A model generated the notes under the pieces. That model did no database searches. It was not told where the DNA came from and saw nothing but the letters and a program-made list of their open reading frames with translations. Positions 355 to 19,717 of a DNA stretch of 48,983 nt are shown one piece after another (within the stretch, counting starts at the first letter, position 1; the number at the start of each line of letters is the position of its first letter). Location: the NCBI RefSeq assembly GCF_025965585.1, contig NZ_JAOPWR010000059.1, forward strand, positions 1 to 48,983, read 5' to 3'. The translations under genes and the position numbers were made by a program. The stretch comes from Pseudonocardia sp. Its GTDB lineage: Bacteria > Actinomycetota > Actinomycetes > Mycobacteriales > Pseudonocardiaceae.

Positions 355-2892
355 CTACAACCCGCCGAGCGGCTCCACGCCGGTGATCCACACCACGGCG
401 CTGCCGTCCTCGTCGGAGGCGGCGAGGTCGACCTCGGCGGTGATGGCCCAGTCGTGGTCGCCCTCGGGGTCGTCGAGGACCTGGCGGACGAGCCAGCGCT
501 CGGGCTCCTCGGTGATCGTGATCATCGACGGCCCGCGGGCGTCCGGGCCGGTGCCGATCGCGACCAACGTGTCGCCGTACTGCTCCCAGTAGGGGAGCAG
601 GGCCTCGCGCCATGCCTCGGCGTTCCAGCCGGAGTCGGAGTCCAGCTCGCCGAGCAGGTCCCAGCGCCGCAGGGCGGCGAGCTCGACGCGGCGGAACATC
701 GCGTTGCGCACCAGCACCCGGAACGCGCGGACGTTGCGGGTGACGCCCGCGGGACCGGAGTCGATCGAGGGCGGCGCGATCTCGTCGCCGGTCCCGGCGC
801 CCGCCGCGAGCGCCTCCCATTCGTCCAGGAGGGACGAGTCGACCTGGCGCACCAGCTCGCCCAGCCACTCCTCGACGTCGGTGAGCTCCTCGGTCTTGGC
901 CTCGTCCGGCACGGTCTGGCGCAGGGCGCGGTAGGCGTCGGCGAGGTAGCGAAGCACCAGGCCCTCCGACCGCGCCAGCTGATAGTGGGAGATGTACTCG
1001 ACGAACGTCATCGAGCGCTCGAACATGTCGCGGGCCACCGACTTGGGCGAGAGCCGCGCGTCCTCCACCCACGGCGCCCCGCGCCGGTAGGTCTCCAGCG
1101 CGCCGGTCAGCAGCTCGTCGAGCGGCTTGGGCCAGGTGACGTCCTCGAGGAGCTGCATGCGCTCCTCGTACTCGATGCCCTCGGCCTTCATCGCCGCGAC
1201 GGCCTCACCCTTGGCCTTGTTCTGCTGGGCGTAGAGGACCTGGCGGGGGTCGTCGAGGGTGGCCTCGATGATCGACAGTACGTCCATCGCGTAGGTGGGC
1301 GAGGACTTGTCCAGCAGCTCCACCGACGCCAGCGCGAACGGCGAGAGCGGCTGGTTGAGCGCGAAGTCGAGCTGCAGGTCGCCGACGAGGCGCACGCGGC
1401 GGCCCTCGGCGTCGGGCTCGTCGAGCTGCTCCACCACGCCGGACGCGAGCAGCGCCCGGTAGATCGCGATGGCCCGCAGGATGTGGCGGCGCTGGCGCGA
1501 GCGCGGCTCGTGGTTGTCCTCCAGCAGGTGCCGCATGGCCGCGAATGCGTTCCCCGGCCGGGAGATCACGTTGAGCAGCATCGCGTGCGAGACCTGGAAG
1601 TGGCTGGTCAGCGGCTCGGGCTGGGCCACCTGCAGCTTCCCGAACCCGGTCTCCGACCACCCGATGAAGCCCTCGGGGGCCTGCTTGCGCACGATCCGCT
1701 TGCGCTTCTTGAGGTCGTCGCCCGCGCGGGCGAGCAGCCGGGCGTTCTCCACCTCGTGGTCGGGCGCCTCGGCCACGACCGTGCCGACGGTGTCGTAGCC
1801 CGCCCGGCCGGCGCGTCCGGCGATCTGGTGGAACTCGCGCGCCTTCAGCGGGCGGGTGCGCTGGCCGTCGTACTTGGTCAGGGCGGTGAAGAGCACCGTG
1901 CGGATGGGCACGTTGATGCCGACGCCGAGCGTGTCGGTGCCGCAGATGACACGCAGCAGCCCGGCCTGGGCGAGGGTCTCGACGAGCCGCCGGTAGCGGG
2001 GGAGCATGCCCGCGTGGTGCACGCCGATGCCGTGGCGCACCAGCCTGCTCAGGGTCTTGCCGAACCCCGAGGTGAACCGGAAGTCCCCGATCACCTCGGC
2101 GATGGCCGCCTTGTCCTCCTTCGACGTGACGTTGACGCTCATCAGCGCCTGTGCCCGCTCGACGGCCGACTGCTGGGTGAAGTGCACGACGTAGACGGGC
2201 GCCTCGTGCGTCTGCAGCAGCTCGGTGATCGTCTCGTGCAGCGGCGAGTAGACGTAGCGGTAGTTCAGCGGCACCGGCCGCTCCACCGACGTGATCACCG
2301 CCGTCGGGCGGCCCGTACGGCGGGTCAGGTCCTCCTGGAAGAAGGACACGTCGCCCAGCGTGGCGCTCATCAGCAGGAACTGCGCCTGCGGCAGCTCGAT
2401 GATGGGCACCTGCCAGGCCCAGCCACGGTCGGGATCGGCGTAGAAGTGGAACTCGTCCATGACGACCGAGCCGACGTCGGCCGCCGCGCCCTCGCGCAGC
2501 GCGATGTTGGCCAGGATCTCCGCGGTGCAGCAGATGATCGGGGCCTTCTCGTTGACGGCCGCGTCGCCGGTGAGCATGCCGACCATGTCGGCGCCGAACA
2601 CGTCGATCAGCGCGAAGAACTTCTCGCTGACCAGCGCCTTGATCGGCGCCGTGTAGAAGCTGCGCTGCCCGCGCTGCAGCGCCACCGCATGCGCACCGAT
2701 GGCCACCAGCGACTTCCCCGACCCCGTGGGCGTGGAGAGGATGACGTTGCTGCCGGTGACGAGCTCCAGCAGCGCCTCCTCCTGCGCCGGGTAGAGCGAG
2801 AGGCCCTGCTCCTCGAACGCCCAGTCGGTGAACGCCTCGACGAGGTCGTCCGGATCGTCGAGGGTGGGGGGAAGGCGTTCGGTGAGGGTCAT
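355..2892 (-). CDS. DEAD/DEAH-box helicase with DUF3516-type C-terminal region
   Basis: A superfamily 2 helicase of 845 residues. Visible motifs are Walker A STPTGSGKS (about 53-61), motif II DEFH (146-149, in place of the usual DExD/H), motif III SAT (176-178) and motif VI QIAGRAGR (356-363). The last ~450 residues lack helicase motifs and resemble the region called DUF3516 in actinobacterial helicases; that assignment is from memory. The frame stays open far upstream, but the ATG at 2892 (protein MTLTERLPPTL) is chosen because DNA beyond it is the divergent intergenic region and then the opposite-strand gene. Likely an RNA or DNA helicase; the substrate is unknown. It is divergent from the ligase/kinase fusion with a 72-base gap. 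Confidence 0.85.
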   Translation of the reverse strand: MTLTERLPPTLDDPDDLVEAFTDWAFEEQGLSLYPAQEEALLELVTGSNVILSTPTGSGKSLVAIGAHAVALQRGQRSFYTAPIKALVSEKFFALIDVFGADMVGMLTGDAAVNEKAPIICCTAEILANIALREGAAADVGSVVMDEFHFYADPDRGWAWQVPIIELPQAQFLLMSATLGDVSFFQEDLTRRTGRPTAVITSVERPVPLNYRYVYSPLHETITELLQTHEAPVYVVHFTQQSAVERAQALMSVNVTSKEDKAAIAEVIGDFRFTSGFGKTLSRLVRHGIGVHHAGMLPRYRRLVETLAQAGLLRVICGTDTLGVGINVPIRTVLFTALTKYDGQRTRPLKAREFHQIAGRAGRAGYDTVGTVVAEAPDHEVENARLLARAGDDLKKRKRIVRKQAPEGFIGWSETGFGKLQVAQPEPLTSHFQVSHAMLLNVISRPGNAFAAMRHLLEDNHEPRSRQRRHILRAIAIYRALLASGVVEQLDEPDAEGRRVRLVGDLQLDFALNQPLSPFALASVELLDKSSPTYAMDVLSIIEATLDDPRQVLYAQQNKAKGEAVAAMKAEGIEYEERMQLLEDVTWPKPLDELLTGALETYRRGAPWVEDARLSPKSVARDMFERSMTFVEYISHYQLARSEGLVLRYLADAYRALRQTVPDEAKTEELTDVEEWLGELVRQVDSSLLDEWEALAAGAGTGDEIAPPSIDSGPAGVTRNVRAFRVLVRNAMFRRVELAALRRWDLLGELDSDSGWNAEAWREALLPYWEQYGDTLVAIGTGPDARGPSMITITEEPERWLVRQVLDDPEGDHDWAITAEVDLAASDEDGSAVVWITGVEPLGGL

Positions 2893-2935: not shown

Positions 2936-2958
2936 CCCCCGGTCGGGGGCGCTAGCCT
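2936..2958 (+). promoter_or_regulatory. Hairpin and -10 box for the leaderless fusion gene
   Basis: CCCCCG-GT-CGGGGG (2936-2949) is a short perfect dyad in the 72-base divergent gap. It is followed by TAGCCT at 2953-2958, seven bases before the GTG at 2965, which fits a leaderless transcript. No convincing -35 is visible. Confidence 0.4.
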
Positions 2959-2964
2959 GGGCTC

Positions 2965-4557
2965 GTGACAGGGACCCCGGGCGGTATGCCCGATCTCGTG
3001 TCGCCCATGCAGCCCTCGGCCGGATCGGGCCAGCCACCCGCCGGACCGGACTGGGTCGTCGAGCTCGCCTGGACGGGCCACCGCTGCATCGCCTACGTCG
3101 AGCCGGGGCGCATCCGCCTCCTGAGCTCGGGTGGCGTCTCGGTGACCGCCGCCTACCCCGAGATCGCCGCGCCGCTCGATCGCCGGTCGCCATCGCGCGG
3201 GATGATCCTCGACGGCACGATCGTGGCCCGCGGGGAGGAGCACGCGCCCCGCCCGAACCTGCTGAAGAAGCGCAGCGCGCGGTTCCACCCGTCCGAGCAG
3301 CATATCCGGGCCGTTCCGGTGGACTTCCAGGTCGCCGACCTGCTCTGGCTCGACGGTCACAGCGCCGTCGACCTGCCCTACCGCGACCGGCGCAGCCTGC
3401 TCGAGGGCCTCGGCTTCGACGAGGCGCCGGTCTGGACCACCTCACCCCTTCCGGTGTCGGAGCTGGAGTCGATGCTCCGGATCGCCGATGTGAAGGGTGT
3501 GGACGCCCTGCACGCGCGACACCTGGGCTCCCGCTACCGGCCCGGGGGGCGCTCGCCTCTGTGGGTGCGGGTCCCGGTGCCGCGCACCCGGCAGGTCGTG
3601 GTGGGCGGCTGGACGCCCACCGACCCCGACCATCCCGACCTCATCGCGAGCCTGCTGCTCGGTGTGCCCGATCCAGCGGGCGCGCTCCGCTACGTCGGCC
3701 GGGTCGGGGTGACGGGGGAGCAGCGCGGCCAGGTCGCCGCCCTGCGCAAGCTGCGGCGCGACGCGTCCCCGTTCGGCGACGGGACGCGCGTGCCCACGGA
3801 GGCGGCGGCGCGGGCCATCTGGGTGGCCCCGCGGCTGGTGGGGTTCGTGGAGTTCACCGGCTTCACCGCCGACGGCCGGCTGCGGCTGCCGCACTGGCGC
3901 GGTCCCGTCCCCACCTCCGACGTCGACGAGACCCGCTGGGCCGTGGCCGCCGACCCGCCCGCCCACCGGTCGTCCGACCGGCAGGCCGGCCCTCCGGCGG
4001 CGGGCGAGCCGGTCGCGGCGGTGCCTGCGGTCGCCGAGCCGGCGGAGGAGGCCCCGTCGGCCCTCGAGACCCCCGCCGCGGGCCCGACCGCGTCCGGGGC
4101 TCCCGGGGCCGAGGCCCGCGCTCTGGAGCAGCATTTCGTCTACAACGCGCTCAACACGATCGCCGCGCTCATCCGCACCGACCCCGGGAGGGCGCGCGAG
4201 CTGCTCTTCGGGTTCGCCGACCTGTCCCGGGCCGCCGACCAGTCCGGCGCCACCACCACCCTCGGGCGCGAGCTCGACGCGGTCCGCGGCTACCTCCAGC
4301 TGGAGCAGGCGCGGTTCGGAGCCCGGCTGCGCGTCGAGCTGGACGTCGACGCCGGCATGCACGGTGCCGCGGTGGAGCCGATGCGGGTGCTCGCCGCCGT
4401 CCGGGAGGCCGTGCAGCAGCACATCGAGCCGCGCCCGCAGGGCGGCGTGCTGACGGTGTCCACGGGCCTCGTCGGCGGCCGCCACGCCGTGACCGTCGTG
4501 GGCGGTTCGGGCGATCCGGTGGTGATCGTGCTGCCCACCGCCGGTGCCTCGGTGTGA
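2965..4557 (+). CDS. Degenerate ATP-dependent DNA ligase core fused to LytS-type histidine kinase domain
   Basis: A 530-residue two-part protein. Residues ~30-315 align by eye with the adenylation and OB domains of LigC/LigD-type DNA ligases. The motif I region reads ELAWTGHR (33-40) where active ligases have E-x-K-W-D-G-x-R, so the nucleotidyl lysine is Ala35 and the Asp is Thr37. Motif III reads LDGTIVA instead of LDGEIVA. The motif V region ends SPLWVRV instead of SPLWVKV. The OB part keeps GGWTP, LLLGVPD, LRYVGRVG and GFVEFTGFT. A Pro/Ala-rich linker (~325-380) leads to a LytS/His_kinase (PF06580-like) segment, LEQHFVYNALNTIAALIRT, with candidate phospho-His390, and LGRELDAVRGYLQLEQARFG. 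The ATPase part that should follow is short and lacks the N-box Asn and a DxGxG motif. Ligase and kinase activity both look lost; a sensing or scaffold role is inference. No response regulator is adjacent. GTG start with TAGCCT close upstream. Confidence 0.8.
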   Translation: MTGTPGGMPDLVSPMQPSAGSGQPPAGPDWVVELAWTGHRCIAYVEPGRIRLLSSGGVSVTAAYPEIAAPLDRRSPSRGMILDGTIVARGEEHAPRPNLLKKRSARFHPSEQHIRAVPVDFQVADLLWLDGHSAVDLPYRDRRSLLEGLGFDEAPVWTTSPLPVSELESMLRIADVKGVDALHARHLGSRYRPGGRSPLWVRVPVPRTRQVVVGGWTPTDPDHPDLIASLLLGVPDPAGALRYVGRVGVTGEQRGQVAALRKLRRDASPFGDGTRVPTEAAARAIWVAPRLVGFVEFTGFTADGRLRLPHWRGPVPTSDVDETRWAVAADPPAHRSSDRQAGPPAAGEPVAAVPAVAEPAEEAPSALETPAAGPTASGAPGAEARALEQHFVYNALNTIAALIRTDPGRARELLFGFADLSRAADQSGATTTLGRELDAVRGYLQLEQARFGARLRVELDVDAGMHGAAVEPMRVLAAVREAVQQHIEPRPQGGVLTVSTGLVGGRHAVTVVGGSGDPVVIVLPTAGASV

Positions 4558-4621: not shown

Positions 4622-5368
4622 ATGCTCGGCCTCCCCGACGGCACCCGCGCGTGCCTCTTCGACCTCGACGGCGTCCTGACCGACACGGCCAGCGTTCACG
4701 CGGCCGCCTGGAAGCAGATGTTCGACGATTTCCTCAAGGCTCGCGCCGAGCGTGACGGCACGCCCTTCCGGGCGTTCGACGTGAAGGCCGACTACGGCCC
4801 GTACGTCGACGGCAGACCCCGCCTCGACGGCACGCGCGAGTTCCTGCGGTCGCGCGGCATCACGCTCCCCGAGGGCAGGCCCGGCGACGCACCGGACGCC
4901 CAGACGATCCGGTCCTTGTCGTCGAAGAAGAACGACCTGGTCCAGGAGAAGATCAACACGGTCGGTGTCGACGTCTACCCCGGCTCGGTCGCGTACCTCA
5001 AGGCGGCGAAGGCCGCCGGCCTGAAGTGCGCGGTCGTCTCGTCCTCGGCCAACGCCGAGCAGGTGCTGGACGTCGCCGGCCTGGCCCAGTACATCGACCA
5101 CCGTGTCGACGGCGTGACCGCCAAGGAGCGCGGGCTGCCCGGCAAGCCCGCGCCGGACACGTTCCTCGCCGCGGCCGGTGACATGGAAGTACCGAAGGAG
5201 CAGGCCGTGGTGTTCGAGGACGCCACCGCCGGTGTCGAGTCGGGCAAGGCCGGCGGGTTCGGGTTCGTGGTCGGGGTGGACCGGGTAGGACACGCCGCGG
5301 AGCTCCGGCGACGCGGAGCCGACGTCGTCGTGCAGGACCTCGCCGAGCTGCTGGAGGAGAAGTCGTGA
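4622..5368 (+). CDS. HAD-family beta-phosphoglucomutase
   Basis: A 248-residue HAD phosphatase/mutase. The motif I box is LFDLDGVLTDT, with Asp14 as expected nucleophile and Asp16 as acid/base. Motif II is VVSSSAN, motif III is the Lys in GLPGKPAPDTFL, and motif IV is VVFEDATAGVESG. Beta-PGMs turn beta-glucose-1-phosphate into glucose-6-phosphate. The adjacent GH65 phosphorylase, whose start overlaps this stop by four bases (GTGA), would supply beta-glucose-1-phosphate, so the pair forms a short disaccharide salvage pathway. The ATG at 4622 is preferred over an upstream in-frame start because it lies directly before the HAD motif and just after a -10 box. Confidence 0.85.
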   Translation: MLGLPDGTRACLFDLDGVLTDTASVHAAAWKQMFDDFLKARAERDGTPFRAFDVKADYGPYVDGRPRLDGTREFLRSRGITLPEGRPGDAPDAQTIRSLSSKKNDLVQEKINTVGVDVYPGSVAYLKAAKAAGLKCAVVSSSANAEQVLDVAGLAQYIDHRVDGVTAKERGLPGKPAPDTFLAAAGDMEVPKEQAVVFEDATAGVESGKAGGFGFVVGVDRVGHAAELRRRGADVVVQDLAELLEEKS

Positions 5369-7725
5369 GTCCTGATCCCGCTCGTGCGTTCGCGGTCGAG
5401 CCGTGGGTGGTGCGCGAGCCGCGCCTCGACATGGAGAACCTCGGCCAGACCGAGTCGGTGTTCGCGCTGTCCAACGGCCACATCGGCCTGCGAGGCAACC
5501 TCGACGAGGGCGAGCCGCACGCCACCCCCGGCACGTACCTCAACTCGTTCTACGAGAAGCGGCCGCTGCCCTACGCGGAGGGCGGCTACGGCTACCCCGA
5601 GTCCGGCCAGACGATCATCAACGTCACCAACGGCAAGCTCATCCGGCTGCTGGTGGAGGACGAGCCGTTCGACCTGCGCTACGGCGAGCTGCGCCACCAC
5701 GAGCGCGTTCTGGACCTGCAGGCGGGCACGCTCACGCGCGAGGTCGAGTGGGCATCCCCGGCGGGCCGCGCGGTGAAGGTGCGCAGTACCCGCATGGTCT
5801 CGCTGACCCAGCGGGCGATCGCGGCCATCCGCTACGAGGTCGAGGTACTCGACGAGCCCGCGCTGCTGGTCGTCCAGTCCGAGCTGGTGGCGAACGAGCA
5901 GCTCCCGGCCCGCGACGACGACGACCCCCGTGTCGAGGCCGCGCTCACCGACCCCTTGCAGTCCGAGCAGCACCGCAGCGACGACGCCGGCGCCACGCTG
6001 ATCCACCAGACCCGCCACTCGGGCCTGCGCGTGGCCGCCGCGATGGACCACGAGGTGCTCGGCCCCGAGGGCACGAAGATCACCTCGGAGGCCACCGAGG
6101 ACATCGGGCGCACCACGGTGATCGCGCGCCTCAAGCCCGGCGAGACGCTCACGATCGTCAAGTACCTGGCGTACGGGTGGTCGTCACGCCGCAGCCAGCC
6201 CGCTCTGCACGACCAGGTGCGGGCCGCGCTCGCCGCCGCGCGCTACACCGGCTGGGAGGGCCTGCTCGCCGAGCAGCGCCAGTACATGGACGACTTCTGG
6301 ACCACCGCCGACGTCGAGATCGACGGCGACGCGGAGCTGCAGCAGGCCGTCCGCCTCGCGATCTTCCACGTGCTGCAGGCGGGGGCCAGGGCCGAGCGCC
6401 GGGCGATCGGGGCCAAGGGCCTCACCGGCGAGGGCTACGACGGGCACACATTCTGGGACACCGAGACGTTCACCCTCCCGGTGCTGTCGTTCCTCGCCCC
6501 GGAGGCGGCGGCCGACGCGCTGCGCTGGCGCCAGTCGATCCTGCCGCTGGCCTACGAGCGCGCCGAGCAGCTGGGCATCGGCGGCGCCGCGTTCCCGTGG
6601 CGCACGATCCGCGGGCAGGAGTGCTCCGGCTACTGGCCCGCGGGCACCGGCGCGTTCCACATCAACGCCGACATCGCCGACGCCGTGCGCCGCCACGTGG
6701 CAGCCACCGGCGACGTCGACTTCGAGCGCGAGGTGGGCCTCGAACTGCTCGTCGCGACCGCGCGGCTGTGGCGCTCGCTGGGCCACCACGACGCGTCGGG
6801 CGAGTTCCGCATCGACGGCGTGACCGGCCCCGACGAGTACACCGCCGTCGTCGACAACAACGTCTACACGAACCTCATGGCGCAGCTGAACCTGCGCGCC
6901 GCCGCCGACACCGCCGCCCGGCACAACCGGGCGGCGGCCAGGCTGGGCGTCAACGCCGAGGAGATGGCGAGCTGGCGTGACGCCGCGAAGGCGATGCGCA
7001 TCCCGTTCGACGAGGTGCTGGGCGTGCACCCGCAGTCGGAGAGCTTCACCGACCACCAGATGTGGGACTTCGAGCACACGCCGCCCGAGCACTACCCACT
7101 GCTGCTGCACGTGCCCTACTTCGACCTGTACCGCAAGCAGGTGGTCAAGCAGGCCGACCTGGTGCTGGCCATGGTGCTGCGCCCCGACATGTTCACGCCC
7201 GAGCAGATGCGGCGCAACTTCGCCTACTACGAGGCCGTGACGGTGCGCGACTCGTCGCTCTCGGCGTGCACCCAGGCGGTGATGGCGGCCTGGACCGGGC
7301 ACCTGGACCTCGCGTTCGACTACCTCGCCGAGTCGGCCCTGGTCGACCTCAACGACCTGGCCGGCAACTCCGACCACGGCGTGCACATCGCGTCGATGGC
7401 CGGCAGCTGGACCGCCGTCGTCTCCGGGTTCGGTGGCATGCAATGCGACGCGAACGGCCTGCGGTTCGCGCCGCGGCTGCCCCCGGCGCTGTCGCGGATC
7501 TCGTTCGGGCTGCTGTGGCAGGGCCGCCGGCTGCGCGTCGAGATGCGGCAGGACGAGGCCGAGTACACGCTGGTCACCGGCCCTCCGATGCGGTTCCGCC
7601 ACCACGGGGAGCCGGTGGCGCTGGCGGGCGACCCGGTCACACTGCCGGTGCCGCCCGTCGAGCCCGTCGAGCCGGTGGAGCAGCCCTACGGCCGGGCCCC
7701 GAAATCGCGCCACCCGGGTAGCTGA
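5365..7725 (+). CDS. Glycoside hydrolase family 65 disaccharide phosphorylase
   Basis: 786 residues, the usual size for GH65 maltose, trehalose or kojibiose phosphorylases. The N-terminal ~270 residues form the expected beta-sandwich region (LSNGHIGLRGN near the start), followed by the (alpha/alpha)6 barrel. The catalytic general acid is Glu491 in TGPDEYTAVVDNNVYTN. GQECSGYWPAGTGAFHIN and GVHIASMAGSWTAVVSGFGGM (around residue 674) match conserved barrel segments; the latter is where phosphate-binding residues lie in phosphorylases. Coupling to a beta-PGM favours phosphorolysis over hydrolysis. The sugar (trehalose, maltose or kojibiose) cannot be told from sequence by eye. Mycobacterium tuberculosis carries HAD and GH65 domains in one chain (Rv2006); here they are two genes. 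Confidence 0.87.
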   Translation: MSPDPARAFAVEPWVVREPRLDMENLGQTESVFALSNGHIGLRGNLDEGEPHATPGTYLNSFYEKRPLPYAEGGYGYPESGQTIINVTNGKLIRLLVEDEPFDLRYGELRHHERVLDLQAGTLTREVEWASPAGRAVKVRSTRMVSLTQRAIAAIRYEVEVLDEPALLVVQSELVANEQLPARDDDDPRVEAALTDPLQSEQHRSDDAGATLIHQTRHSGLRVAAAMDHEVLGPEGTKITSEATEDIGRTTVIARLKPGETLTIVKYLAYGWSSRRSQPALHDQVRAALAAARYTGWEGLLAEQRQYMDDFWTTADVEIDGDAELQQAVRLAIFHVLQAGARAERRAIGAKGLTGEGYDGHTFWDTETFTLPVLSFLAPEAAADALRWRQSILPLAYERAEQLGIGGAAFPWRTIRGQECSGYWPAGTGAFHINADIADAVRRHVAATGDVDFEREVGLELLVATARLWRSLGHHDASGEFRIDGVTGPDEYTAVVDNNVYTNLMAQLNLRAAADTAARHNRAAARLGVNAEEMASWRDAAKAMRIPFDEVLGVHPQSESFTDHQMWDFEHTPPEHYPLLLHVPYFDLYRKQVVKQADLVLAMVLRPDMFTPEQMRRNFAYYEAVTVRDSSLSACTQAVMAAWTGHLDLAFDYLAESALVDLNDLAGNSDHGVHIASMAGSWTAVVSGFGGMQCDANGLRFAPRLPPALSRISFGLLWQGRRLRVEMRQDEAEYTLVTGPPMRFRHHGEPVALAGDPVTLPVPPVEPVEPVEQPYGRAPKSRHPGS

Positions 7726-8881: not shown

Positions 8882-11248
8882 GTGTCCAACAGCACGTCTC
8901 CCGCGCAGTCCAACGGGACCGATCCGAACGTCGATCCCGACGGCATCGAGCGCGAGCGTCGCTACGTCGCCATGCTCTACGAGCGGCTCGACGTGCGGCG
9001 GGCCGAGACCGCGCAGCGGCTGCACGACGTGCTGCACGACGAGACGGTCGGTACCCCGCAGGCCCTGACCGAGCGCGACGTCGCCGCCGGGATCTACACC
9101 GACCGCCTGGCGGCGCTGCGCGCGGCCGAGCACGGGCTCGCGTTCGGCCGCCTCGACGCCGACGACGGCGAGCGGCGCTACATCGGCCGGCTGGGCCTGC
9201 TCGACGAGGACAACGACTACGAGTCCTTGCTGATGGACTGGCGCGCCCCGGCGGCGCGGCCGTTCTACACGGCCACGGCGGCCTCCCCGGAAGGCATCCG
9301 CCGCCGCCGGCACCTGCGCACCCGCCGTCGTGAGGTCACGGCGATCGACGACGAGGTGCTCGACATCGACGCGGCCGGTGCCGCCGACCAGGCCAGCGGC
9401 CTTACCAGCGAGGCCGCGCTGCTGGCCGCCGTCGGCGCGAGCCGTACGGGCCGGATGTCCGACATCGTGGCGACCATCCAGTCCGAGCAGGACGCGATCA
9501 TCCGGTCCAAGCCGTCGGGCGTTCTCGTGGTGCAGGGCGGCCCCGGCACCGGCAAGACGGCCGTGGCGCTGCACCGGGCCGCCTACCTGCTCTACACCCA
9601 CCGCGACCGCCTGGCGCGGCGCGGCGTGCTCGTCGTCGGGCCGAACCCCACGTTCCTGTCCTACATCGGGCAGGTCCTGCCGTCGCTGGGCGAGACGTCG
9701 GTCGTGCTGGGCACCGTCGGGCAGCTCTTCCCGGGCCTGGACGCCCGCCGCCCCGAGCCGCCCGCGGTGTCGGAGGTCAAGGGCCGGCCCGACATGGCGC
9801 CGGTCGTGGCGGCGGCCGTCCGCGACCGCCAGCAGGTGCCGCCGCGCCCGGTCCGGCTGGTCGTCGACCAGCAGGACGTCCGGCTGGACCGCGACATCGC
9901 GAACACCGCCCGCACCCGGGCCCGGCGCTCGCGCAAGCCGCACAACGAGGCGAAGCGGATCTTCCAGAAGGAGGCCGTCCGGCTGCTCGCCGAGCAGGTG
10001 GCGCGCACGCTCGGCGGGCGCGGACTGCTCGACCGCGGCGACATCGGCGACATCCGCGAGGAGCTCAACGAGAGCCGCGAGCTGATGCGCGAGCTCGACA
10101 AGCTCTGGCCCACGCTCTCGGCCCAGGAGCTGCTCACGGACCTGTTCGCCGATCGGCGCAAGCTCAACTCGGTGGCCCGGCGCATCCCCGCCGACGACCG
10201 GGCGCTGCTGCTGCGCGACCGGCCCGCCGACGACGTGCCCGAAGGCCTGCGCTGGTCGCCGGCCGACGTCCCGCTGCTCGACGAGGCCGCGGAGCTGCTC
10301 GGCGACGACGGCTCCGAGGCCGCCGCCCGTGAGGCCGCCGCGCTGCGCGAGGAGATCCAGTACGCGCAGGGCGTGCTCGACGTCCTCGACCTGGAGGAGG
10401 ACCTCGACGACGAGCTGCTGCGGGCGGGTGACGTCGTCGACGCCGACCGGCTCGCCGAGCGTCAGCAGGTGCGCCGCTACGACTCCACCGCCGACCGGGC
10501 GGCGGCCGACCGCGAGTGGACCTACGGCCACGTGATCGTCGACGAGGCGCAGGAGCTCTCGCCGATGGCCTGGCGGCTGATCATGCGCCGCTCGCCGAGC
10601 CGGTCGATGACGCTCGTCGGCGACATCGCGCAGACCGGCGACCTGTCGGGCGCGAACTCGTGGGGCGAGGTGCTCTCGCCGTACGTGGCGAGCCGTTGGC
10701 GACTGGAGCAGCTGACCGTCAACTACCGGACGCCCGCGGAGATCTCCGACGTCGCCGACGACGTGCTCGCGGCCATCGAGCCCGGCCTCGCCCCGCCGCG
10801 CGCGGTGCGGAGCACAGGGGTGCCGCCGCGCGTGATCCGTACCGTCCCCGGCGAGCTGGAGGACGAGATCGCCAAGGTGCTCGCCGAGGAGACCGGCGCC
10901 GTGGGGGAGGGGCGCACCGCCGTCCTCGCCCCCGAGGAACGGGTCGCCGCGCTGCGGGAGCGGCTGCTGGGCACGGTCGAGCGCGACCTCGGACCGGTCG
11001 GTCCCGACGGGCCGCCCGACCCGGACGTCGACCTGGAGTCGCCGATCGTGGTGCTGCCCATCACCGCGGCGAAGGGCCTGGAGTTCGACGCGGTGGTGCT
11101 CGTCGAGCCGGCGGAGGTGCTGGCGGCCAGCCCGAGGGGTGCGAACGACCTCTACGTGGCGCTGACGCGCTCGACGCAGCGCCTGGCGGTGGTCCACAGC
11201 CGGGACCTGCCCCCGATGCTCCACCGCCTGGCGGAGCTGGAGGCCTGA
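8882..11248 (+). CDS. helD: HelD-family RNA polymerase recycling ATPase
   Basis: 788 residues of the UvrD/Rep-like superfamily 1 group. The N-terminus (to ~150) is a charged, long-helix segment typical of the HelD coiled-coil arm, including ERERRYVAMLYERLDVRRAE. Walker A is GGPGTGKT (219-226), motif II is VIVDEAQELSP, motif III is VGDIAQTGDLSG, and motif VI is in the C-terminal YVALTRSTQRLAVVHS. HelD removes stalled RNA polymerase from DNA and frees it from rifampicin in some actinomycetes (HelR). I found no rifampicin-associated element in the 122 bases upstream. GTG start; the gap to the previous gene has no clear terminator. Confidence 0.87.
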   Translation: MSNSTSPAQSNGTDPNVDPDGIERERRYVAMLYERLDVRRAETAQRLHDVLHDETVGTPQALTERDVAAGIYTDRLAALRAAEHGLAFGRLDADDGERRYIGRLGLLDEDNDYESLLMDWRAPAARPFYTATAASPEGIRRRRHLRTRRREVTAIDDEVLDIDAAGAADQASGLTSEAALLAAVGASRTGRMSDIVATIQSEQDAIIRSKPSGVLVVQGGPGTGKTAVALHRAAYLLYTHRDRLARRGVLVVGPNPTFLSYIGQVLPSLGETSVVLGTVGQLFPGLDARRPEPPAVSEVKGRPDMAPVVAAAVRDRQQVPPRPVRLVVDQQDVRLDRDIANTARTRARRSRKPHNEAKRIFQKEAVRLLAEQVARTLGGRGLLDRGDIGDIREELNESRELMRELDKLWPTLSAQELLTDLFADRRKLNSVARRIPADDRALLLRDRPADDVPEGLRWSPADVPLLDEAAELLGDDGSEAAAREAAALREEIQYAQGVLDVLDLEEDLDDELLRAGDVVDADRLAERQQVRRYDSTADRAAADREWTYGHVIVDEAQELSPMAWRLIMRRSPSRSMTLVGDIAQTGDLSGANSWGEVLSPYVASRWRLEQLTVNYRTPAEISDVADDVLAAIEPGLAPPRAVRSTGVPPRVIRTVPGELEDEIAKVLAEETGAVGEGRTAVLAPEERVAALRERLLGTVERDLGPVGPDGPPDPDVDLESPIVVLPITAAKGLEFDAVVLVEPAEVLAASPRGANDLYVALTRSTQRLAVVHSRDLPPMLHRLAELEA

Positions 11249-17881: not shown

Positions 17882-19717
17882 TCAGGCGGCCTCGTCGCCC
17901 CCGGTCAGCGTCTCCAGCACGCCGTCGCCATACTTGGCCAGCTTGTTCTCGCCGATCCCGCTGATCGTGCCCAGCTCGGTGAGGGTGGTGGGCATCCGCG
18001 TGGCGATCTCGCGCAGCGTGGCGTCGTGGAAGATCACGTACGCGGGCACGCCCTGCTCCTTGGCCGTGGCTCCCCGCCACGCGCGCAGGCGCTCGAACAC
18101 CGGTGCCGCGCCGGGGGCCATCTCGACCTGCGCCGCCTTGGACGACCGCGTGCGGGTGCGTGCGGTGCGTTCGGGGTCGCGGCGCATCTTGACCCTGCGC
18201 TCCCCGCGCAGCACCGGGCGGCTGGCGTCGGTGAGCACGAACGTCTGGTACGTGCCCTCGACGCCGAGCAGCCCCTGGGCCATGAGCTGCCGGATCACTC
18301 CGCGCCACTCGCCCTCGCCGAGATCGGCGCCCACGCCGAACACGGTGAGCGAGTGGTGGTCGAACTGCTCGACCTTGGCTGTGCGCTTCCCGAGCAGGAT
18401 GTCGATGATCTGGCCGGCGCCGAACTTCTGGCCGCGCTCGCGGTCGAGCCGGAACACCGTGGAGAGCACCTTCTGCGCGGGCACGGTCCCGTCCCACGAC
18501 TCCGGCGGGGTCAGGCACGTGTCGCAGTTGCCGCACGGGTCGCCCTGCTGGCCGAAGTAGTTGAGCAGCTGGACACGGCGGCACTCGACCGTCTCGCACA
18601 GCGCCAGCATCGCGTCGAGGTGCTGGGAGAGGCGCTGGCGGTGCGCGCGGTCGCCCTCCGACTCGTTGATCATCTTGCGCTGCTGGACGACGTCGGCGAG
18701 CCCGTAGGCCAGCCACGCGGTGGACGGCAGCCCGTCACGGCCGGCGCGGCCCGTCTCCTGGTAGTAGCCCTCCACCGACTTGGGCAGGTCCAGGTGGGCG
18801 ACGAACCGCACGTCGGGCTTGTCGATGCCCATGCCGAACGCGATGGTCGCGACCATCACGATGCCGTCCTCGCGCAGGAACCGCGCCTGGTTCCGCGCGC
18901 GCAGGCCGGCGTCGAGGCCCGCGTGGTACGGCAGGGCCGGGATCCCCTGGGCCACGAGGAACTCCGCCGTCTGCTCCACCGACTTGCGCGACAGGCAGTA
19001 GACGATGCCCGCGTCGCCGGGGTGCTCACTGCGCAGCAGGTCGAGCAGCTGCCTGCGCGGCTCGTTCTTCGGCGCGATCCGGTACTGGATGTTCGGGCGG
19101 TCGAAGCTGGCGACGAAGTGCCGCGCCTCGGTGAGGCCCAGCCGCTGCGCGATCTCGGTGTGCGTGCTGCGCGTGGCGGTGGCCGTCAGCGCGATGCGCG
19201 GGACATCCGGCCAGCGCTCGTGCAGCTGGGAGAGGGCGAGGTAGTCGGGGCGGAAGTCGTGGCCCCACTGCGCGACGCAGTGCGCCTCGTCGATGGCGAA
19301 CAGGGCGATGGTGCCGCGGTCGAGCAGGCGCAGCGTGGACTCGACGCGCAGCCGTTCCGGGGCGAGGTAGAGCAGGTCCAGCTCGCCGGACAGGTACGCC
19401 GACTCGACGGCGCGCCGCTCGTCGGGATCCTGGGTGGAGTTGAGGAACCCGGCCCGGACGCCGAGCGCCGTGAGGGCGTCGACCTGGTCCTGCATGAGGG
19501 CGATCAGCGGCGACACCACCACGCCGACGCCCGTCCGGACCAGCGCCGGGATCTGGTAGCAGAGCGACTTGCCGCCGCCGGTGGGCATGAGGACGAGCGC
19601 GTCGCCCCCGCCGCTGACGTGCTCGACGACGGTGGCCTGGTCACCCCGGAACGCGTCGTAGCCGAAGACGCGCCGGAGCACGTCGAGCGGAGCGGGCGCG
19701 GTGTCGGGGAGGGCCAC
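17882..19717 (-). CDS. recQ: ATP-dependent DNA helicase RecQ
   Basis: 611 residues, standard RecQ length. Walker [13 protein letters not shown], motif [20 protein letters not shown], motif [12 protein letters not shown], then the zinc-binding cysteines (CETVECR ... CGNCDTC), winged helix, and a C-terminal HRDC domain ([17 protein letters not shown] through [13 protein letters not shown]). It unwinds DNA 3' to 5' in recombination and fork repair. GTG start at 19717, with TACGAT a short distance upstream, suggests a leaderless transcript. It ends towards the FAD/GcvT gene. Confidence 0.93.

Follow-up and report, generated by a model that had tools for sequence, protein, structure and literature searches.

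Background

RecA/LexA is the usual explanation of DNA damage signalling in bacteria, joined in actinobacteria by PafBC, and eukaryotic DNA-PK consists of Ku plus a kinase. In bacterial non-homologous end joining (NHEJ), Ku and LigD are described as repair machinery, and we met no signalling arm in the passages cited (PMC9638933, PMC8656161, PMC5124664). Here we describe an open reading frame in a 48,983-nt stretch of Pseudonocardia sp. DNA (contig NZ_JAOPWR010000059.1, assembly GCF_025965585.1; this whole stretch is hereafter called the window) in which a LigD-type ligase domain is joined to a LytS-type dimerization and histidine phosphotransfer (DHp) module with a His at residue 390. We know of no ligase-type input domain on a histidine-kinase-type protein elsewhere. 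Searches of open-licence literature listed no description of a ligase–histidine kinase fusion, which does not prove that none exists; 'histidine kinase' has no use in PMC7719229 and 'kinase' none in PMC5124664.

The ligase domain of Mycobacterium tuberculosis LigD (1vs0/6nhz) shares with the fusion protein the nucleotidyltransferase (NTase) and OB fold and the Trp/Gly/Arg scaffold of motif I, but the fusion lacks the nucleophilic Lys, the phosphate-binding Arg and the motif III Glu, carries a kinase module and has no POL or PE domain by Pfam. Like LytS-type (PF06580) kinases such as GanS (6swk) and the actinobacterial GAF-LytS kinases encoded near a LytTR regulator, it has an H-box with an invariant His and the DHp helices, and its Actinomycetospora orthologues have a full HATPase domain; unlike them, it has an apparently dead ligase as input rather than a GAF or membrane sensor, its ATP-binding part is degenerate in Pseudonocardia, and no LytTR regulator adjoins it. 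Ku–LigD NHEJ loci resemble the arrangement in g3, probably a genus of Pseudonocardiales metagenome bins, in which Ku lies directly upstream of the LigD-type gene, but the fusion lacks the residues for ligation and bears a signalling module. DNA-PK is comparable by analogy only: Ku is genetically linked here with a kinase-derived protein of putative activity, whereas the kinase fold and chemistry are unrelated.

Our preferred reading, to which we assign a probability of roughly 0.45, is that a pseudoligase docking on DNA ends or Ku forms the input of a LytS-type signalling protein that probably acts on a LytTR regulator. A dead NHEJ ligase as the input of a kinase module, right behind Ku in one genus, makes the reporting of double-strand breaks by two-component signalling testable.

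The ligase half keeps a predicted ligase fold

The gene, its predicted promoter and the parts of its ligase half are as follows.

2965..4557, + strand: pseudoligase-LytS fusion gene, 530 aa, GTG start
2953..2958, + strand: -10 box TAGCCT, 6 nt 5' of the GTG; leaderless-type promoter, predicted by consensus match
3046..3570, + strand: NTase domain of LigD-type ligase, residues 28-202, predicted inactive (Pfam DNA_ligase_A_M, PF01068, E 3e-15, and fold)
3067..3084, + strand: motif I remnant AWTGHR, residues 35-40, Lys to Ala35 and Asp to Thr37 (alignment)
3127..3129, + strand: Ser55, replacing Arg (M. tuberculosis LigD Arg501 by alignment; Arg in 14/14 intact ligases)
3208..3219, + strand: motif III remnant LDGT, residues 82-85, Glu to Thr85 (alignment)
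3640..3903, + strand: OB domain (DNA_ligase_A_C, PF04679, E 4e-13), residues 226-313

An earlier note on this DNA, made from the letters alone, had assigned the N-terminal part to the LigC/LigD adenylation and OB domains and suggested that a predicted structure be checked for a ligase fold. The Pfam matches bear this assignment out, the closest solved relative is the M. tuberculosis LigD ligase domain (E 1e-33), and the structure model has a predicted ligase fold, NTase plus OB, across residues 6-332. A structure search with this model gave ligases alone among the matches listed, a result that bears on the ligase part only.

We compared 54 fusions (32 from Pseudonocardia, the window included, 11 from Actinomycetospora and 11 others, with a second copy from genome G037 among them) with 14 intact relatives. 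Three residues that all 14 relatives have are missing from every one of the 54: the Lys of motif I, the Arg that Ser55 replaces in the window protein and the Glu of motif III, so that the note's question whether homologues with an intact motif I Lys exist is answered in the negative for this set. By alignment the lost residues are Lys481, Arg501 and Glu530 of the M. tuberculosis LigD domain (530 being counted from the alignment), and roles of Lys481 and Arg501 are described in PMC8656161. Ala35, Thr37 and Thr85 of the window protein stand where all 14 relatives have Lys, Asp and Glu, which bears out the three replacements named in the note; the loss of Lys and Glu extends to all 54 fusions and that of Asp does not, the motif I Asp being retained in 3/32 Pseudonocardia, 8/11 Actinomycetospora and 11/11 other fusions. 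Ser55 is a loss beyond those the note had listed. The scaffold residues of motif I (Trp/Gly/Arg) are retained in the fusions. Judged by these alignments, the ligase half is predicted to be catalytically dead.

The old adenylation pocket might instead sense a small nucleotide or other ligand, with DNA and Ku irrelevant to present function. Arg40 is kept in 53 of the 54 fusions and Arg196 in all of them, and by alignment these are LigD Arg486 and Arg629, which contact the ribose and gamma-phosphate (PMC8656161). All of positions 35, 55 and 85 (Lys, Arg and Glu) are altered, however, and the OB domain, which a small ligand would not need, is kept and constrained; we consider such a ligand sensor improbable.

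The kinase half is eroded to different degrees

The remaining parts of the gene are these.

3919..4122, + strand: linker, residues 319-386; predicted confidence (pLDDT) <50 over most of 335-384; fast-evolving in most pairs
4123..4329, + strand: LytS-type His_kinase/DHp module, residues 387-455 (PF06580, E 1e-13)
4132..4134, + strand: His390 codon, invariant, presumed phospho-acceptor (alignment)
4330..4542, + strand: HATPase remnant, shortened and degenerate, residues 456-526, having lost the lid and the N, G1 and G2 boxes (Pfam, model, alignment)

The LytS-type segment with His390 was already recognized in the earlier note, and both His390 and the Asn four residues on (N394) are invariant in an 18-sequence alignment, which agrees with the presumed phospho-acceptor role. 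The fused kinase half is similar to a stand-alone GAF-LytS kinase of its own genome (42% over 140 aa), and its DHp resembles that kinase around the His. In a tree of 26 of the 56 retained fusions and 30 of the 72 retained kinases, the fused kinase halves fall on one side of a branch from the 30 stand-alone kinases (support 92, not starred).

The same note had found the ATP-binding box missing, and this holds for the window protein, in which a remnant persists (helix 474-487 and strands 494-522 in the model), but is not general. No HATPase_c match was found by Pfam in the three Pseudonocardia fusions tested (window, L046 and L016), and the N, G1 and G2 boxes are decayed in the aligned members of this genus. 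In Actinomycetospora orthologues, by contrast, these boxes are intact (alignment of two members) and HATPase_c is matched with E-values of 4.5e-9 (L048) and 8e-11 (L030). The fusion family thus appears as a graded series of pseudoenzyme evolution, from an intact-looking kinase in Actinomycetospora through a part-eroded one in g3 to an ATP-less DHp in Pseudonocardia, all with a seemingly dead ligase.

Distribution, selection and origin

The fusion is present in 55/62 Pseudonocardia genomes (two copies cut at contig ends), 17/18 genomes of the genus of G042, taken to be Actinomycetospora, and 10/11 g3 genomes at a cut-off of E <= 1e-130, which is stricter than the best listed ligase-only match at order level (9.5e-116). 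The named contigs carrying the family belong to Pseudonocardia, Actinomycetospora and Pseudonocardiales metagenome bins. At order level, 4 of the 298 genomes drawn gave a full-length match, all in the window's own taxonomic family, and the other matches, among those listed, are to the ligase part. None of 1059 plasmid records with a match holds one place covering 80% of the protein, and PADLOC anti-phage defence models gave no family at E 0.01 for the window protein and L053.

Purifying selection acts on both halves and is strongest on the DHp: its ratio of nonsynonymous to synonymous substitution rates (dN/dS) is 0.02-0.24 in ten pairs, and that of the ATPase tail is 0.21-1.20 in eight Pseudonocardia pairs, 0.07 in an Actinomycetospora pair and 0.27 in a g3 pair. 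A TANNNT box lies 6-7 nt 5' of an in-frame GTG or ATG in 31/32 Pseudonocardia orthologues, compared with 11/640 random positions at the same loci. Leaderless actinobacterial promoters have such a layout of -10 box and start, and the GTG at 2965 that the earlier note had taken as start is backed by this pattern and by its own TAGCCT box. Simple pattern scans upstream of the fusion found no matches to SOS- or PafBC-like boxes. Given prevalence and dN/dS, chance is untenable as an explanation of the fusion; chance or a pseudogene was ruled out by these and the promoter pattern. A functionless decaying gene would account for the loss of catalytic residues from both halves in Pseudonocardia, but it conflicts with the retention of the gene in nearly all genomes of the three genera, with purifying selection and with the conserved leaderless-type promoter, and we regard it as extremely improbable.

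The ligase halves of the fusions form one clade (SH-aLRT 99.9) and therefore a single origin suffices. In the ligase tree, g3 and G037, a member of a further genus, are on one branch and Actinomycetospora and Pseudonocardia on another. Before tree building, sequences alike in their last 150 residues were dropped, which reduced the fusions from 78 to 56, the ligases from 24 to 21 and the kinases from 84 to 72, as were 14 redundant or partial rows for the ligase tree; the trees are quick searches with SH-aLRT support only.

Linkage to Ku

Ku is encoded immediately upstream of the fusion on the same strand in all ten fusion-bearing g3 genomes (tblastn; three at or cut by a contig end), and Pfam identified it as such in two of them (PF02735, 1.5e-45 and 1.8e-47). 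The Ku stop precedes the likely start of the fusion by 6-22 nt in eight of these genomes, although in one of the eight, G180, the start may instead overlap, and by 82-94 nt in the other two. In Actinomycetospora, Ku lies 9-14 kb from the fusion in 7/7 genomes examined, of 17 with the fusion, and G037 has a second, apparently frameshifted fusion copy beside another Ku. Because these lineages fall on both branches of the ligase tree, the linkage is most simply ancestral. The operon-like arrangement in g3 is a further point against a ligand sensor indifferent to Ku. The M. tuberculosis Ku core contacts the LigD ligase domain directly, and the LigD polymerase domain is the likely primary Ku site, according to PMC9638933; through the direct contact Ku might also bring in a ligase domain that is dead.

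The same linkage would be expected of our main rival explanation, a non-signalling structural or regulatory NHEJ factor. Its dead ligase would scaffold the active ligases at Ku-bound ends or compete with them there, and its DHp would serve only for dimerization or for bridging two ends. The Pseudonocardia proteins have lost the ATPase while the DHp stays most constrained, as such a factor could, and ligases with the motif I Lys are encoded elsewhere in four g3 genomes (G048, G154, G191 and G002) and in the window's own genome. This explanation does not readily account for the invariance of His390, for the HATPase boxes of Actinomycetospora, which are constrained in the one pair measured, or for a DHp that matches that of the stand-alone kinase around the His, and we judge it rather unlikely.

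Some further observations concern Ku loci. A palindromic 24-mer, with variants, occurs twice in the spacer between Ku and the fusion in two g3 genomes (L198 and L200) and is possibly a regulatory site or a small mobile repeat. The second fusion copy of G037 (L186:9172-10434), which adjoins Ku, is apparently frameshifted at both ends. Non-fusion ligases beside Ku that have Asp, Met or Arg in place of the motif I Lys were found in Actinomycetospora (L188, L189 and L201-L204), in G192 (L144) and in G037 (L186:7507-8064), and in G042, G075 and G166 the Ku-linked ligase genes without this Lys gave no OB-domain match. Ku-linked ligases seem to decay repeatedly in Pseudonocardiaceae.

Proposed mechanism and candidate partners

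We propose that a single fusion event, in some ancestor among the Pseudonocardiaceae, turned the ligase domain of a LigD-type NHEJ protein into the input of a LytS-type kinase, with loss of its chemistry. The ligase half would dock on Ku, on DNA ends or nicks, or on both, and the linker would relay the docking state to the DHp dimer. In Actinomycetospora, where the fusion could be an ordinary kinase, docking would switch autophosphorylation of the His by the intact-looking ATP-binding domain. In Pseudonocardia, where that domain has decayed, the protein may be a DNA- or Ku-gated phospho-acceptor, be phosphatase-like, or be a hetero-dimer partner of the stand-alone GAF-LytS kinase, and it would act on the LytTR response regulator of that kinase. 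A DNA-break alarm, with Ku on a double-strand end recruiting the dead LigD domain by the Ku-ligase contact and the LytS module phospho-signalling to a LytTR transcription factor, is in our estimate unlikely; if it is real, Ku plus DNA-PK would have a two-component counterpart in which a broken DNA end is the input of a histidine kinase.

Seven genomes (G042, G075, G048, G154, G191, G202 and G002) have two LytS-type kinases, one stand-alone and one in the fusion, and a single LytTR gene, located 2-5 kb from the stand-alone kinase. In the window's own genome there are again two LytS-type kinases, but three LytTR genes. A receiver domain is not seen in two of these (one of them maybe incomplete at its start), so that the regulator beside the stand-alone kinase remains. 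The order there is stand-alone kinase, S49-type peptidase gene, LytTR gene; the peptidase gene is the ~250-aa gene that we had considered as a regulator and ruled out. Extra LytTR regulators with a receiver occur in G192 (probably Pseudonocardia thermophila, L217:8528-9355, ~5 kb from the fusion), G004 (L214:2996-3856) and G050 (L215:2921-3922). They are paralogues of the regulator beside the stand-alone kinase, 55-65% identical to it, have no other LytS-type kinase close by, and are candidate partners of the fusion.

Several points weigh against the signalling reading. No LytTR gene adjoins the fusion in any of 20 genomes, the nearest being that of G192, and the earlier note's remark that no response regulator lies beside the gene holds to this extent, other regulator families not having been searched. 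The extra regulators of G004, G050 and G192 mean that the choice of partner is not forced in every Pseudonocardia, and the genomes behind the partner counts are 87-99% complete. Ku was found near the fusion in 0/6 Pseudonocardia genomes examined, as a ligand sensor would allow: it is >1.5 Mb away on the same contig in G050, G237 and G259 and on other contigs in G000, G004 and G192, although in G000 the fusion lies 3 kb from a contig end and nearness there is not strictly excluded. All Ku linkages may go back to one ancestral event. The g3 kinases keep the N and G1 boxes (HATPase_c 1.6e-6 and 2.8e-7), but their G2 box is missing, as is part of the lid, and the window protein, which lacks the usual ATP-binding boxes, is not a self-sufficient kinase. 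The dS values (NG86) are rough in GC-rich genomes.

Two observations were made around the possible partners. The stand-alone GAF-LytS kinase gene begins 4-27 nt after an Fpg/Nei-type glycosylase gene at six loci (L192:4631-8666, L061, L063, L064, L072 and L081; genes called with a home-made finder, Pfam on four of the six), which suggests another connection with DNA repair. LytTR proteins of a second kind, without a receiver domain, occur in the window's own genome (L213:1762-3108 and L216:20-817), in G259 (L218:2088-3470) and in G037 (L220:1063-2244); for three of them (L213, L216 and L218) Pfam was run on the long N-terminal part and matched nothing.

Neighbouring genes in Pseudonocardia

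The fusion gene has the following conserved neighbours in this genus.

355..2892, - strand: DUF3516 DEAD-box helicase, divergent neighbour (PF12029 4e-211; synteny)
4622..5368, + strand: HAD hydrolase, downstream (synteny)
5407..7725, + strand: GH65 family enzyme, downstream (synteny)

The earlier note had named the divergent helicase as a possible partner. It is near the fusion at 17/19 Pseudonocardia loci but at no Actinomycetospora or g3 locus whose upstream side was read, Ku being the linked repair gene in those lineages, and as a neighbour in Pseudonocardia only it was ruled out as a general partner. A UvrD-like helicase, perhaps of the HelD/HelR kind, is encoded at 8882-11248 of the window and lies close to the fusion at 13/26 clustered loci, and the window also encodes a RecQ helicase with RQC and HRDC domains at 17882-19717.
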